Source: Streptomyces formicae (GTDB lineage Bacteria; Actinomycetota; Actinomycetes; Streptomycetales; Streptomycetaceae). Taken from it: a stretch of DNA of 64,000 bases. Within the stretch, counting starts at the first letter, position 1; each line of letters begins with the position of its first letter. The position numbers and the translations under genes were made by a program. The stretch spans positions 1,736,001-1,800,000 of the forward strand of contig NZ_CP022685.1 of the NCBI RefSeq assembly GCF_002556545.1, read 5' to 3'. Of the stretch, positions 42,155 through 62,434 are shown in pieces. The notes beneath the pieces were generated by a model. The model made no database searches, was not told the DNA's origin, and was given only the letters and a program-made list of their open reading frames with translations.

Positions 42155-42177
42155 AGACTACCGGGGACCACTGACAA
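42155..42177 (-). promoter_or_regulatory. PafBC-type (RecA-NDp) DNA-damage promoter of helY
   Basis: On the minus strand: TTGTCAGTG, eight bases, TAGTCT. All defined positions of the consensus tTGTCRGtg-N8-TAnnnT match. The -10 element ends 11 bases before the helY ATG, in the correct orientation. Confidence 0.82.
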
Positions 42178-44817: not shown

Positions 44818-45093
44818 CTAGACGGTGGAGTGCAGACGCAGCGTCCGCACCCCCGCGCCGGTGAGGAGTTCCACGATGCGCTCGCCCGCGGGCTTGCGCA
44901 CCGCGACCCCGCACTCGGGGCAGGTGAAGGAGTAGAAGGTGGTGCGGCGGCTGGCGCCGATCGCCAGGCGCAGCGCCCCCGCGGAGAGCTCGAAGCGGGC
45001 GCGGCAGTCGGGGCAGGCGGCGGTGAAGAGGACGGGCCCGTGCTTCGGCTGCGCGGGCACCCCCGGCAATCCGGACATGGTCGGTGTGCTCAA
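44818..45093 (-). CDS. Small zinc-ribbon protein translationally coupled to pafC
   Basis: A 91-residue protein with two CxxC knuckles: CPDCRARFEL near residue 29 and TCPECGVAV near 60, consistent with one zinc site. The family is not recognised. The TTG start at 45093 overlaps the pafC stop (TTGA) and has GGAG eight to nine bases upstream, which favours it over the internal ATG at 45078. The coupling suggests a role linked to PafBC. A DNA- or RNA-binding adaptor is possible but unproven. Confidence 0.72.
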   Translation of the reverse strand: MSTPTMSGLPGVPAQPKHGPVLFTAACPDCRARFELSAGALRLAIGASRRTTFYSFTCPECGVAVRKPAGERIVELLTGAGVRTLRLHSTV

Positions 45094-46076
45094 CGCCCCT
45101 GCTCCTGCCTGTCGTCCCTGTCGAAGGGCTGCTCGTACGCGTCGAGGGCCTCGCGCGCCGCCTGCCGCGCGCTGTCGGCGAGCTGCGCCGGCGAGACGAT
45201 CCGCCCGTCCCCGCCGAGCCGCAGCGCGAGCCTGCGCAGCGAGGCGGGATCGGGGGTGCGCAGGGTGATCCGCAGACCGCCGTCGGGCAGCTCGTCGGCG
45301 CTGTCGTGCGGGTAGTACTCGGCGACCCAGCGTCCGCCGGGGCCGACCTCGACGACCACCTCGGGGTCCTCGGCGGCGGGCTGCACGAGTCCTTCGGAGA
45401 GGTCGCGCAGCTCGACCTCGGGCGGCGCGGACGGCTCGTCCAGGATCTTGATCTCGGCGACCCGGTCGAGCCGGAAGGTGCGGCGCGCCTCGGAGCGGCG
45501 GCACCACGCCTCCACGTAGGTGTGGCCGACGCTCACCAGGCGGATCGGGTCGATCTCGCGCTCGGTGAGCTCGTCGCGGGCGGGCGAGTAGTAGCGGATC
45601 CAGAGCCTGCGGCGCTCGGAGATCGCCCGGTCGACGTCGGCGAAGACGCCGCCCTCGGACTCGAAGGTGACCGAGAGCCGGGAGCTGGCGCCCGCCGCCT
45701 CGCCCGCCGCGGTCTCCAGCTTGGCGGTGGCGCGCAGGAGCGCGAGGCGGTCGCTCTCGCGCAGTCCGGGCAGGGTGGAGACCGCGCGGGCGGCCACCAG
45801 CAGCGCGGTGGCCTCGTCGGCGGCGAGCCGGAGCGGCGCCGCGACGTCGTCGGGGTTGTGCCACCAGATGCGGTCGCCGTCGGTGTCGATGTCGAGCAGG
45901 TCGCCGCCGCGGAAGCTCGTCCCGCACAGCGGCAGGACGTCGAGGTCGGAGATCAGTTCGTCGGGGGTGATGCCGAAGGCGCGGGCGACGTCCCCCACGT
46001 GGGCGCCGGGGCGCTCGCGCAGATAGGTCACGAGCGACAGCATGCGTCGGGTCTGGTCGATGGCGTTCGAGGCCAT
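45090..46076 (-). CDS. pafC: WYL-domain transcriptional activator subunit PafC
   Basis: A 328-residue regulator. The N-terminal winged helix (about 5-60, MLSLVTYLRERPGAHVGDVARAFG) is followed by the WYL domain with the WIRYYSPARDE/HTYVEAWCRRSE region and a C-terminal extension. PafC pairs with PafB to form the DNA-damage activator PafBC, which in mycobacteria turns on RecA/LexA-independent repair genes. Gap to pafB is 17 bases, so they are cotranscribed. Despite the name (proteasome accessory factor) it is a transcription factor. Confidence 0.93.
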   Translation of the reverse strand: MASNAIDQTRRMLSLVTYLRERPGAHVGDVARAFGITPDELISDLDVLPLCGTSFRGGDLLDIDTDGDRIWWHNPDDVAAPLRLAADEATALLVAARAVSTLPGLRESDRLALLRATAKLETAAGEAAGASSRLSVTFESEGGVFADVDRAISERRRLWIRYYSPARDELTEREIDPIRLVSVGHTYVEAWCRRSEARRTFRLDRVAEIKILDEPSAPPEVELRDLSEGLVQPAAEDPEVVVEVGPGGRWVAEYYPHDSADELPDGGLRITLRTPDPASLRRLALRLGGDGRIVSPAQLADSARQAAREALDAYEQPFDRDDRQEQGR

Positions 46077-46093: not shown

Positions 46094-47071
46094 TCAGCCC
46101 TTGGCCACGGCGCGCAGCCGGTCCACGACGTCGGCCCGCAGCTCGGCGGGCTCAAGGACCACCACGTCGGGCCCGAACTCCACCAGCCAGGCATCGAGCC
46201 CGTGGCCGTACGGAATCTCCAACTCGTCCCACCCGTCGCCCAGTTCCCGCACCGAGACGGCCTTGGCGCGCAGCGGGTAGCCCGCGCCCGTCCGCAGCCG
46301 GATCAGGGCGGTGCGGTCGGCGGTCTCCCCCGCCCAGCTCGCGACGGTCTCACGGACCGTGACGACGTCGGGGACGTCGGCGGTGTACTTCCCCGCGCGG
46401 GCCCGGACCTTGCCGGTGATCCGGGAGAGCCGGAAGACGCGCTCGGCGCCCCGGTCCCTGTCCCAGCCCGCGAGGTACCAGTGGCCGCGCCAGCACTCCA
46501 GCGCCCAGGGCTCGACGTGGCGCTGCTCGGGGCGGGCCGCCGTGGCCTTGCGGTAGTCGAAGACGACGGGGCGGCGGTCGCGGCAGGCCAGCATCAGCGG
46601 CTCGAAGGACGCGTCGTGCGCGGGGATGCGCGGTTCGAGGGCGCCGTGCGACTCGTACGGGTCGACGTCCTCGGGCAGCCCGGCCGCGCGCAGCTTCTGC
46701 AGGGCGCCGCTGGCCGCTCCGGCGAGCCTGGCCTGCTGCCAGACCTTCGCGGCGAGACCGAGGGCGGCGGCCTCCTCGGCGTCGATGGTGATGGGCGGCA
46801 GCCGGTTGCTGTCCCTGCGGGCCAGGTAGCCGACGTCGCCGTCGAGGTTCTCCACGGTCTCGATGACCAGGCCGAGCTCGCGAAGGTCGTCCTTGTCGCG
46901 CTCGAACATCCGGTTGAAGGAGTCCTCCGACCCCGCCGCCCGGCCGCCGGGCCCGAAGGCCTCGACGTATGCCTCGATGGAATCGCGCAGCTCGCGCTTG
47001 CTGAGCGGCCGCCGGGTCCCGAGCAGACACAGCGCCAGGTTCATCAGCCGCTCGGCCTTGGCAATGGCCAT
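46094..47071 (-). CDS. pafB: WYL-domain transcriptional activator subunit PafB
   Basis: A 325-residue partner of PafC. The N-terminal winged helix covers AKAERLMNLALCLLGTRRPLSKRELRDSI, followed by the FERDKDDLRELGL linker typical of PafB. The WYL core is RPVVFDYRKATAARPEQRHVEPWALE, then WYLAGWDRDRG. The PafBC complex binds sigma-dependent promoters with TGTCRG at the -26 region. Three such sites are seen in this window. The FKBP terminator upstream means pafB has its own promoter within 47072-47149. Confidence 0.94.
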   Translation of the reverse strand: MAIAKAERLMNLALCLLGTRRPLSKRELRDSIEAYVEAFGPGGRAAGSEDSFNRMFERDKDDLRELGLVIETVENLDGDVGYLARRDSNRLPPITIDAEEAAALGLAAKVWQQARLAGAASGALQKLRAAGLPEDVDPYESHGALEPRIPAHDASFEPLMLACRDRRPVVFDYRKATAARPEQRHVEPWALECWRGHWYLAGWDRDRGAERVFRLSRITGKVRARAGKYTADVPDVVTVRETVASWAGETADRTALIRLRTGAGYPLRAKAVSVRELGDGWDELEIPYGHGLDAWLVEFGPDVVVLEPAELRADVVDRLRAVAKG

Positions 47072-52668: not shown

Positions 52669-53454
52669 CTACTCCACGTCGCCGCCGGAGTCCCGCGCCG
52701 ACCCGGTCCCCGCGTCCGTGTCGGCGTCCGTGTCTCCGGCCGCGTCCGTGGCGCCGCCCTCGTCGAGCAGGCGGGACAGCTGGCGCCCCACGATCCGCTT
52801 GAACTTCCGCTGCTGGGGCCGCGTCCGGTCCAGGACCGCCACCTCGAGCCGCTCCGCGGGGATCTCCCGCTCGCTGCCGTTGGTGTCACGGGAGAGCGAC
52901 TGCACCGCGAGCTTGAGCGCCTCCGCGAGCGTCATCCCGTCCTGATGACGCTGGTCGAGGTAGGAACTGATCTGCTCCGCGTTGCCGCCGACCGCGACCG
53001 AGCCGTGCTCGTCCACGATCGAACCGTCGTGCGGCAGGCGGTAGATCTGGTCCCCGTCCGGCGTGGCACCGACCTCGGCGACGACCAGCTCGACCTCGTA
53101 CGGCTTCTCCGCGTTGCTGGAGAAGATCGTGCCGAGCGTCTGGGCATAGACGTTGGCGAGCCCACGGGCCGTCACATCGTCACGGTCGTAGGTGTATCCG
53201 CGGAGGTCGGCATAACGGACGCCGCCGATCCGCAGATTCTCGTACTCGTTGTACTTACCGGCGGCCGCGAAGCCGATCCGGTCATAGATCTCGCTGAACT
53301 TGTGCAGCGCACGGGACGGATTCTCGCCGACGAACACGATGCCGTCGGCATACTGCATCACGACAAGGCTGCGACCGCGGGCGATGCCCTTGCGGGCGTA
53401 TTCCGCCCGGTCGGCCATGGCCTGCTGGGGTGAGACATAGAACGGCGTCGACAC
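52669..53454 (-). CDS. prcA: 20S proteasome alpha subunit
   Basis: A 261-residue alpha subunit. It starts [22 protein letters not shown], the N-terminal gate segment, and has the typical [18 protein letters not shown] strand pair. The 7-subunit alpha rings gate entry of pupylated substrates into the core particle. A C-terminal 30-residue acidic tail rich in Asp, Thr and Gly is variable among actinobacteria. GTG start; AAGGGA upstream. It follows prcB by 51 bases. Confidence 0.97.
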
Positions 53455-53505: not shown

Positions 53506-54351
53506 TCAGAGCAGCGCGGCACGCGGGCCGTCGGGCTGTTCCAGACGCTTCTCCAGGATCGAGCGCGCGATCGCGGAGGACTCCTCCTCCGTCAGCCGCC
53601 GGAAACCCTCGTCGGAGATCACGGTGACGATGGGGAAGATCCGGCGGGCCATGTCGGGACCGCCCGTCGCCGAGTCGTCGTCGGCCGCGTCGTACAACGC
53701 CTGGATGACCAGGGTCGTCGCCTGCTCCTCCGTCAGAGCGTCGTGGTAGAGCTTCTTCATCGCACCGCGCGCGAAGACCGAACCCGAACCGGTCGCCGCG
53801 AAACCGTGCTCTTCGGAACGCCCGCCCGTGACGTCGTACGAGAAGATGCGCCCCTTCTCGCGGTCCACGTCGTACCCCGCGAAGAGCGGCACCACGGCGA
53901 GGCCCTGCATGGCCATGCCGAGGTTGCTCCGGATCATCGTCGAGAGGCGGTTCGCCTTGCCCTCCAGCGAGAGCGTGGCACCCTCCACCTTCTCGAAGTG
54001 CTCCAGCTCCAACTGGAAGAGCTTGACCATCTCCACGGCGAGACCCGCCGTGCCCGCGATGCCCACCGCCGAGTACTCGTCGGCAGGGAACACCTTCTCG
54101 ATGTCGCGCTGCGCGATGACGTTGCCCATCGTCGCTCGCCGGTCACCGGCGAGCACCACGCCGCCGGGGAACGTCACGGCCACGATGGTCGTACCGTGCG
54201 GAGCCTCGAGCACGCCCTGGGTGGGCGGCAGCTGCCGGTTGCCCGGCAGGATCTCGGGCTGGTGCTCGGACAGGAAGTCCATGAAGGACGACGAACCAGG
54301 CGTCAGGAAGGCAGCTGGTAGACGCCCGGTGCTACGAGGATTGGCTTCCAC
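53506..54351 (-). CDS. prcB: 20S proteasome beta subunit (threonine protease)
   Basis: A 281-residue precursor. A 53-residue propeptide ends in APHG, and the mature enzyme begins with the nucleophile Thr54 ([17 protein letters not shown]). The usual active-site Asp/Lys framework follows (GDRRATMG). The beta rings form the proteolytic chamber. GTG start at 54351 with AAGGA six bases upstream. Its first 49 bases overlap the end of the endonuclease VII-like gene, so expression of the two is tied. Confidence 0.97.
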
Positions 54352-54602
54352 GAGTTTCCTTCCAGGTAAGCGGCGGCTCGGCGGGTCCTGTCGGGGTCGT
54401 CCCCCAACTTGCCGATGCCCGAATTGCAGTTGAAGCACAGTACGCCACGGACCTTACCCGTCGCGTGGCAGTGATCCACATGGATTGCGGAGGCGCTGGG
54501 ACAGATCCCCCGCACCGGCTTGCCGAGGGCCTCCCGACGGCGCCGGTCGTGCGCCGCGCCGTACTCGGCCACGCACTCCCGGCACCGCGGCAGGTCGGTC
54601 AT
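54303..54602 (-). CDS. Endonuclease VII-like (HNH/His-Me) protein inside the proteasome operon
   Basis: A 99-residue protein of the recombination endonuclease VII family. It has a CxxC pair (Cys7, Cys10), an HVDHCH motif with Asp43/His44, and CFNCN with Cys56, Cys59 and Asn60. This matches the zinc site and catalytic Asp-His...Asn arrangement of T4 endonuclease VII, a Holliday-junction resolvase, though this is shorter than the phage enzyme. It overlaps pup by four bases (ATGA) and prcB by 49. A similar gene sits here in other Streptomyces. Whether it cuts DNA or is only a structural zinc protein is untested. Confidence 0.88.
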
Positions 54603-54817
54603 TGACCGCCTTTTTGCACAAATGAGCGAACGAAGTCCTCGGCGTTCTCCTCGAGGACGTCGTCGATCTCGTCCAGCACGGAGTCCACGTCGTCGCTCAG
54701 CTTCTCCTGGCGCTCCTTGAGGTCCTCGGAGCCCTGCGCGTCCTGCGTCTGCTCCTCGGTCTCCTCGGTGGAGCGCGTCGCCTTCTGCTGCCCGCCGCCG
54801 GTGTCCTTGGTCGCCAT
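54599..54817 (-). CDS. pup: Prokaryotic ubiquitin-like protein Pup
   Basis: A 72-residue disordered modifier. It is rich in Glu, Asp and Gln. The C-terminal half (DDVDSVLDEIDDVLEENAED) forms the helix that docks on the Arc/Mpa coiled coil. The C terminus is KGGQ, so Dop must deamidate the Gln to Glu before PafA can attach it. The stop codon overlaps the endonuclease VII-like start. A PafBC-type promoter lies 37 bases upstream. Confidence 0.98.
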   Translation of the reverse strand: MATKDTGGGQQKATRSTEETEEQTQDAQGSEDLKERQEKLSDDVDSVLDEIDDVLEENAEDFVRSFVQKGGQ

Positions 54818-54853
54818 CTACCTCACCCCGCTCGGTTAGACGTTCTTGATCAG

Positions 54854-54876
54854 ACCCTACAAGCGAGGTCTGACAT
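54854..54876 (-). promoter_or_regulatory. PafBC-type (RecA-NDp) promoter of the pup-prcBA operon
   Basis: On the minus strand: ATGTCAGAC, eight bases, TAGGGT. The essential TGTCRG and TAnnnT elements and their spacing match tTGTCRGtg-N8-TAnnnT; three less-conserved flanking bases differ. An inverted repeat TCAGACC-N10-GGTCTGA (54850-54873) covers the same region. The -10 ends 37 bases before the pup ATG. Confidence 0.72.
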
Positions 54877-54936
54877 CGGCCCCTTACTTCCTCAACGTCC
54901 GGGGACCACCTCGATGATTCCCACACTGTGGGCCTT

Positions 54937-56448
54937 TCAGCCCCCGGACAGCACCCGTACCAGGTCTTCCGCCGTACGGCAGCGGTCCAGAAGTTCCTTG
55001 ACGTGGTTCCTCGTGCCGCGCAGGGGCTCCAGCGTGGGTACCCGTTGCAGCGAGTCACGGCCCGGCAGGTCGAAGATGACCGAGTCCCAGGACGCCGCGG
55101 CCACGTCGTCCGCGTACTGCTCGAGGCAGCGCCCGCGGAAGTACGCGCGCGTGTCCTCGGGCGGCTTGCTCCTGGCCCGCTCGACGTCCGCCTCGTCCAG
55201 GAGCCGCTTCATCTTGCCCCGGGCCACCAGGCGGTTGTACAGGCCCTTCTCGGCCCGTACGTCGGCGTACTGGAGGTCGACCAGGTGGAGCCGCGCGGCG
55301 TCCCAGTCGAGGCCGTCACGGCGGCGGTAGCCCTCCATCAGCTCTCGCTTGGCGACCCAGTCGAGTTCTCCGGACAGGCTCATCGGATCGCTCTCCAGGC
55401 GCCCGAGGACGTCCTCCCAGCGGGCGAGCACGTCCTTGGTCTGCTCGTCCGCGTCGGCGCCGTAGCGCTCCTCCACGTACTTGCGGGCCAGCTCGAAGTA
55501 CTCCATCTGGAGCTGGACCGCGGTGAGTGAGCGGCCGCTGCGGAGCGTGACCAGGTGCTTGAGCGAGGGGTCGTGCGAGACCTGGTGCAGGGTGCGCACC
55601 GGCTGGTCCACCGCGAGGTCCACCGCGATGAAGCCGTCCTCGATCATCGCGAGGACGAGCGAGGTGGTGCCCAGCTTGAGGTACGTCGAGATCTCGGAGA
55701 GGTTCGCGTCCCCGATGATCACGTGCAGCCTGCGGTACTTCTCGGCGTCCGAGTGCGGTTCGTCCCGGGTGTTGATGATGGGCCGCTTGAGCGTCGTCTC
55801 CAGGCCGACCTCGACCTCGAAGTAGTCGGCGCGCTGGCTGAGCTGGAAGCCGTGCTCGTGGCCGTCCTGGCCGATGCCGACGCGTCCCGCGCCGGTGACG
55901 ACCTGCCGGGAGACGAAGAAGGGCGTCAGGTGCCGCACGATGTCCGAGAAGGGGGTCTCCCGCTTCATCAGGTAGTTCTCGTGCGTCCCGTAGGAGGCGC
56001 CCTTGTTGTCGGTGTTGTTCTTGTAGAGGTGGATCGGCTGGGCGCCGGGGAGCTGCGCCGCGCGCTCGGCGGCCTCGGCCATGATGCGTTCGCCGGCCTT
56101 GTCCCACAGGACCGCGTCCCAGGGGTTGGTGATCTCCGGCGAGCTGTACTCGGGGTGTGCGTGGTCGACGTACAGGCGTGCGCCGTTGGTCAGGATGACG
56201 TTGGCGAGGCCGATGTCCTCGTCGGTCAGCTGGCTGGCGTCGGCGGCCTCGCGGGCGAGGTCGAAACCCCGCGCGTCCCGCAGCGGGTTCTCCTCCTCGA
56301 AGTCCCAGCGGGCGCGTCGCGCCCGGTGCATCGCCGCGGCATAGGCGTTGACGATCTGGGACGAGGTGAGCATGGCATTGGCGTTGGGGTGGCCGGGGAC
56401 GGAGATGCCGTACTCCGTCTCGATGCCCATTACTCGCCGTACGGTCAT
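54937..56448 (-). CDS. dop: Pup deamidase/depupylase Dop
   Basis: A 503-residue PafA paralogue. ATP/metal motifs are [42 protein letters not shown] and [10 protein letters not shown]. Dop-specific features are the longer N-terminal region with the flexible Dop-loop around [16 protein letters not shown]. It converts Pup-Gln to Pup-Glu and removes Pup from substrates. It lies upstream of pup but is separated by 119 bases that contain a promoter, so it is a separate or only partly shared transcript. Strong GGAGG site before the ATG. Confidence 0.96.
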
Positions 56449-62411: not shown

Positions 62412-62434
62412 TTGTCAGTGGCGGGTCGTAGGGT
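62412..62434 (+). promoter_or_regulatory. PafBC-type (RecA-NDp) DNA-damage promoter of the RecB-family nuclease
   Basis: TTGTCAGTG, eight bases, TAGGGT: every defined base of tTGTCRGtg-N8-TAnnnT matches. The -10 element ends nine bases before the nuclease ATG, so transcription should start at or next to the start codon and the mRNA would be leaderless. Confidence 0.88.

Follow-up and report, generated by a model that had tools for sequence, protein, structure and literature searches.

We identified an element in front of pup in Streptomyces formicae that is likely to be a functional promoter of the RecA-NDp/PafBC class, driving pup, the endonuclease VII-like gene, prcB and prcA in Streptomyces. 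This reading is based on what is observed directly, namely the motif with its spacing and placement, its conservation, the set of repair genes preceded by the same motif, and the presence of pafB and pafC. The element is a new member of a known promoter class, and the class itself has already been reported in Streptomyces. The preliminary description of this DNA had suggested that pup, the endonuclease VII-like gene, prcB and prcA are transcribed from such a promoter, and both the motif and its genus-wide conservation speak in favour of a promoter at the head of this compact unit. In the following, the window is the whole 64-kb stretch of DNA that was analysed, and PMC2375139, PMC5087735, PMC5656591, PMC6789036, PMC8223512 and PMC11804915 are cited from excerpts.

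The element between dop and pup

On the minus strand of the window, TGTCAG-N10-TAGGGT can be read directly from the sequence at 54875-54854, between dop and pup (...GGGGCCGATGTCAGACCTCGCTTGTAGGGTCTGATCAAG...; Table 1). The gap between the two genes measures 119 nt and dop ends at 54937, so that the site is intergenic. It had been described as carrying both promoter elements at the right spacing, 37 bases before pup; elements, spacing and placement stand, while the distance needs correction, as we count 36 nt between the end of TAGGGT (54854) and the pup ATG (54817). The pattern TGTCRG-N10-TAnnnT (hereafter the strict motif) has the same spacing as ATGTCAGAC-N8-TAGGGT, and the S. rimosus recA promoter, TTGTCAGTGGC-N6-TAGggT in the excerpt of PMC2375139, equals it in spacing as well. 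TGTCRG placed at N8 or N9 from TAnnnT gave no match, N10 being the correct spacing. At positions 54750-55050 a simple consensus scan returned neither a sigma-70-type promoter pair nor a housekeeping -35, and a terminator scan of the same stretch also came back empty. TGTCAG at pup is followed by AC and not by the preferred TG, a preference that is not invariant and does not strictly define the class. Scored with a leave-one-out weight matrix, the pup site ranks 59th among the 80 sites of the genome. Upstream of the site, at about 54880-54930 on the minus strand, lies a block (GGGAATCAT...GGACGTTG) that is moderately conserved in Streptomyces and, judged by eye, might be a promoter for SigR or another ECF sigma factor.

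Pfam places dop, pup, the endonuclease VII-like gene, prcB and prcA consecutively, with arc upstream. Because the ATG of the endonuclease gene overlaps the pup stop and prcB probably starts inside the endonuclease gene, the four genes from pup to prcA look like one unit. The window holds three strict matches in total, and none of them lies before dop, arc, pafA or pafBC, which agrees with the earlier statement that dop and arc are left separate from the site. The two other strict sites flank the proteasome region, and thus three of the 80 genomic sites fall within about 20 kb. The endonuclease VII Pfam model is matched only in part here and in several other Streptomyces. In the class sample, many actinobacterial families have this gene immediately after pup, and its pairing with pup thus predates Streptomyces. 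A link between the pup site and the endonuclease gene was rejected, as the gene lies near pup in many families that have no site, and tblastn failed to detect it in L349, L351 and L352, three loci that do carry the site.

Table 1. Coordinates of the pup promoter element, the proteasome genes and the other strict sites in the window.
Feature	Position	Strand	Basis
TGTCAG, -26-type element of the RecA-NDp/PafBC class	54870..54875	-	direct read and pattern scan
TAGGGT, -10 element, exactly N10 after TGTCAG	54854..54859	-	direct read and pattern scan
CTGATC, directly 3' of the -10	54848..54853	-	same placement in 107/133 site-bearing Streptomyces upstream regions
Predicted start of transcription (A, seven bases past the -10)	54847..54847	-	inferred from start codons 6-10 nt past the -10 at 21 other sites
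Inverted repeat TCAGACC-N10-GGTCTGA, spanning both promoter elements	54850..54873	.	exact
pup, 72 aa	54599..54817	-	PF05639
Endonuclease VII-like gene, 99 aa; ATG overlaps pup stop (ATGA)	54303..54602	-	Pfam
prcB; the inferred GTG start at 54351 overlaps the end of the endonuclease gene	53506..54351	-	PF00227
prcA	52669..53454	-	PF00227
dop, upstream neighbour, without a site in front	54937..56448	-	PF03136
pafB-like gene with WYL and WCX domains; the name follows from the adjacent pafC	46094..47071	-	Pfam
pafC (HTH_PafC, WYL, WCX)	45090..46076	-	Pfam
Second strict site; a DEAD-box helicase gene has its predicted start 10 nt further on	42155..42176	-	pattern scan and gene prediction
Third strict site; a PD-(D/E)XK nuclease gene has its predicted start 8 nt further on	62413..62434	+	pattern scan and gene prediction

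The motif across genomes and at pup

The strict motif marks a real promoter class in this genome, and the evidence for this is strong. The window contains three sites where 0.10 would be expected, a count that none of 100 shuffles reached, and the whole genome contains 80 against 6 for the reversed pattern. Gene starts were predicted around all 80 sites with a small codon-usage gene finder, using a clean training set and a control: 68 sites lie outside predicted genes and point at a co-directional gene start within 300 nt, compared with 2/80 control points taken from the same stretches. In 21 of these 68 the start codon follows the -10 by 6-10 nt, as expected for leaderless transcripts whose first base is that of the start codon, and no control point shows this. 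The counts against the reversed pattern, the placement relative to genes and the recurrence of the site at 76 of 80 pup loci (see below) all argue that the motif is not a product of chance; a chance match is ruled out by the shuffles, the reversed-pattern and locus counts and the control points.

An earlier run of the gene finder, trained on a set with two doubtful open reading frames from the window, had placed 67 of the 80 sites in this way, and it is this 67-site set that was used for Pfam. All 66 genes other than pup were scanned, with a match in 56 and none in the remaining 10. At least 16 of the 66 carry DNA repair or recombination domains: RecA, UvrA, UvrB_inter (two genes), RuvC, RecD2, RecQ, UvrD and MgsA/RarA, together with AlkZ, O6-methylguanine methyltransferase, UDG, HhH-GPD, an RNase_T exonuclease with BRCT, PD-(D/E)XK, and a RadA-like domain set, for which the name RadA is our reading of the domain combination. 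Transporters, sigma factors, TerD proteins and ribosomal protein S6 are among the other genes led by the motif. After TGTCRG, T (76%) and G (75%) predominate in the 67 sites, and the regulon as a whole prefers TGG. Two further sites with AC in this place (L247 and L290) precede predicted starts by 7 and 6 nt from the -10. Before a glyoxalase-family gene of the same genome (L241; C1:90685-90706, minus strand), TGTCAGAAGTCTGACATACCGT holds a perfect palindrome, TGTCAGA-AG-TCTGACA.

Motif matches occur in all 60 genomes sampled from the order, as does a PafC domain, which scores above the cut-off in 59. Within the genus the excess over the control is large, from 39 against 6 in the genome with the fewest sites, with 80 against 6 in our own. 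A related genus (g3) shows a smaller excess, and a genome from another family (G150) nearly none (6 against 4). One genome of a related genus (G158) holds 219 strict sites against 11 for the reversed control, more than twice the number of its relatives.

At pup itself the conservation that the preliminary description had made a check of its proposal is present. Among 80 named loci (the closest Pup relatives, nearly all from Streptomyces, with one labelled Kitasatospora and one Streptosporangium), 76 have a strict site within 200 nt of pup, always at N10; no other spacing from 4 to 18 was found in these 80 loci. Away from pup, the same loci contain no strict site in 496,216 bases on both strands, and the reversed control occurs once. 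On a broader scale, 236 of 295 genomes of the genus match a combined pattern that joins the site to the ribosome-binding region of pup; the reversed control matches in none. In the first 150 of these genomes pup was found in 149, and 120 match, a number counted by the combined pattern without confirming each position at pup individually. The 29 that do not match were read again (the 29 among the other 145 genomes were left out of this), and 15 have a strict site at another distance, eight a site with one mismatch, four with two and two with three. About 135 of the 149 genomes thus have a strict site at pup, and 14 have none.

For the upstream alignment 165 regions were tried, 29 of which had been picked precisely because they missed the combined pattern; seven were dropped since the start pattern failed or they were too short, and 149 distinct regions were kept. 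The distance from the -10 to the pup ATG runs from 36 to 122 nt, so that the motif stays constant in surroundings that change position. ACC follows TGTCRG in 112 of the 133 site-bearing Streptomyces regions. Taken as a separate genome-wide element, TAnGGTCTGATC has four exact matches in our own genome, including the one at pup, and the control, being of unlike composition, is uninformative. Two variants were seen along the way. In L324 and L027 the site has shifted to about 145 nt upstream of pup and the -10 reads TAGTGT. A Streptomyces clade of eleven loci (L322, L327, L328, L329, L330, L334, L335, L339, L340, L342 and L343) has a doubled -10-like segment, with two copies of TAGGGT or a variant of it at a distance of 12 nt. 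In most of these loci it is the first copy that completes the inverted repeat; in L327 the two read TGTCGGACCC...TAGGGTCCGACGTAGGGTCTGATC. The Pup of this clade scores slightly lower.

Beyond the genus the site has a patchy distribution. Other families supplied 80 pup-upstream regions (13 from the same order and 67 from the same class, one of them, L210, only 26 nt long), of which eight have a strict site and 72 have none; 23 have a site within one mismatch, which the reversed control reaches in 0/80. Six such loci were fetched at length, and in all of them the site lies between dop and pup, with a gap of about 1.4 kb in L353. The canonical TGTCGGTG is present in three of the six and thereby connects the pup form of Streptomyces with the PafBC class. 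In one related genus (f3 g3) none of the eight genomes has a strict site at pup; PafC is above the cut-off in seven of them, and all eight show the genome-wide motif excess. The link between the site and pup has thus been gained or lost on more than one occasion.

Possible mechanism and competing readings

PafBC binding, the start site, induction by damage and a role in feedback at pup are what we infer from these observations. Upon DNA damage, single-stranded DNA would activate PafBC, which would in turn allow RNA polymerase with the housekeeping sigma factor to work from a promoter without a -35 box, in which TGTCRG lies at about -26 and TAnnnT at -10. Transcription would start about 7 bases past the -10. 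Damage would then most likely raise the levels of Pup, the endonuclease-like protein and the 20S core, with dop, arc and pafA depending on other promoters. In this way the regulator of the repair genes would also turn on the machine that later removes the repair proteins.

Food for discussion is the inverted repeat that overlaps the site. As had been noticed earlier, TCAGACC-N10-GGTCTGA is exact; it arises from the ACC after TGTCRG together with the CTGATC after the -10. In the window it has a single match at up to two mismatches; since one or more such matches turn up in 23 of 100 shuffles, the repeat alone is not beyond chance, whereas its conservation is. We consider it rather improbable, though deserving of more attention than any other competing reading, that TCRGACC-N10-GGTCTGA serves as operator for a further regulator, a dimeric one, acting besides PafBC or instead of it; a repressor in this position would cover both the PafBC element and the -10. 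The ACC at +6 to +8, where the regulon has TGG, completes the symmetry with the GGT of the -10. Five pairs of the repeat (2-25, 3-24, 5-22, 7-20 and 8-19) are kept in 127-130 of 131 sequences, and most pairs are invariant. Two genomes without a strict site (L320 and L332) retain the repeat, and the clade with the doubled -10 has the matching C in the 3' arm. Against an operator, the only variable pair is DNA-symmetric in just 49 of the 131 sequences and mostly G-T in the others, and other changes in the 5' arm go unmatched in the 3' arm. Nor does the repeat appear to have a regulon: our genome contains two exact places, pup and one other, and with one mismatch eight distinct places against four for a control pattern, which leaves a genome-wide operator unsupported. 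The pup form is probably a specialised and weaker PafBC promoter, judging from its sequence, to which a second regulator may be added.

Another reading, to which we give slightly less credit still, takes the element for a constitutive housekeeping promoter, in which TAGGGT and the conserved CTGATC set the basal transcription of pup and TGTCRG is a relic or a minor helper. The proteasome is required also in the absence of damage. In the alignment, TAGGGT and CTGATC are the best-conserved bases around the -10 and at least as well conserved as TGTCRG, though the alignment was anchored there; the strict TGTCRG is lost in the 14 of 149 genomes mentioned above, which often keep the -10 region; and the rank of the pup site among its 80 counterparts fits this reading as well. 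Against a housekeeping promoter of this kind, 76 of 80 loci keep TGTC at exactly N10, with no other spacing seen, although the distance to the start codon differs between loci by tens of bases. No housekeeping -35 was found in the scanned stretch, and the outgroup pup sites with the canonical TGTCGGTG likewise point to PafBC. That some other regulator drives pup through the RecA-NDp motif, for example ClgR (ClpR-like), appears very improbable: as cited in the excerpt of PMC5656591, ClgR expression induces prcB and prcA in M. tuberculosis and a ClpR-like protein has been reported to recognise the RecA-independent promoter motif, but the motif class has been assigned to PafBC in mycobacteria (PMC8223512, PMC6789036, PMC11804915).

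If the PafBC reading is true, one signal makes both the repair proteins and the machine that destroys them. So far the adjacency of pafBC and the proteasome genes has been accounted for through protein turnover. With a conserved PafBC-class promoter on pup, a direct link in transcription and a simple negative-feedback circuit would be added, in a genus where PMC9380542 left open the existence of a RecA/LexA-independent damage response. A bolder version, in which PafBC directly induces the Pup-proteasome core operon as a built-in off-switch and the specialised TGTCRGACC...TAGGGTCTGATC repeat lets a second regulator time it, is speculative and, in our view, doubtful.

Comparison with known systems

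According to the excerpt of PMC2375139, S. rimosus, S. coelicolor and S. avermitilis have the RecA-NDp motif as a DNA-damage promoter. In mycobacteria the class has been assigned to PafBC through in vivo binding and structural work, and PafBC is described there as activated by single-stranded DNA and acting with the housekeeping RNA polymerase (PMC8223512, PMC6789036, PMC11804915). An initial motif search in S. venezuelae suggested that the mycobacterial PafBC motif is not conserved (PMC9380542); for Streptomyces in general, the counts in our own genome and in the order sample, the repair-gene set of our genome and PMC2375139 point the other way. Control of pup by PafBC in Streptomyces was not found in the part of the open-access literature that was searched.

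The pup element resembles the RecA-NDp/PafBC promoters of mycobacteria and of S. rimosus recA in TGTCRG, N10, TAnnnT, the lack of a detected -35 and the use of the motif before DNA-repair genes. It differs from them in the ACC after TGTCRG and the CTGATC after the -10, which together form the inverted repeat, and in its target, here a proteasome operon. The SIGffRid motif TGTCAGT-N14-TnG of S. coelicolor and S. avermitilis, found with DNA-repair genes in Streptomyces, belongs to the same class, and its seed TGTCAGT is incompatible with the pup form TGTCRGACC (excerpt of PMC2375139). A parallel is the macrodomain gene SCO6735 of S. coelicolor, where a RecA-NDp promoter conserved in Streptomyces also precedes a gene outside the classical repair set; SCO6735 is a different gene, and its induction, 5-fold after UV, was measured (excerpt of PMC5087735).

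In M. smegmatis pafBC likewise lies near the proteasome genes (PMC5656591, PMC8223512). The preliminary description had held this neighbourhood to be without an understood reason, which is true in part: the adjacency itself was rightly noted, but it is not wholly unexplained, given that RecA and further proteins under PafBC control are described as being cleared by the proteasome of M. smegmatis once damage has occurred (excerpt of the review PMC8223512). In M. smegmatis cells without PafBC, the protein levels of Dop, Mpa, PrcA and PrcB were unchanged under the conditions reported in the excerpt of PMC5656591. No PafBC effect on the levels of proteasome components was seen there, whereas here a promoter of this class precedes pup, and the link to pup would accordingly be specific to lineages other than M. 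smegmatis.
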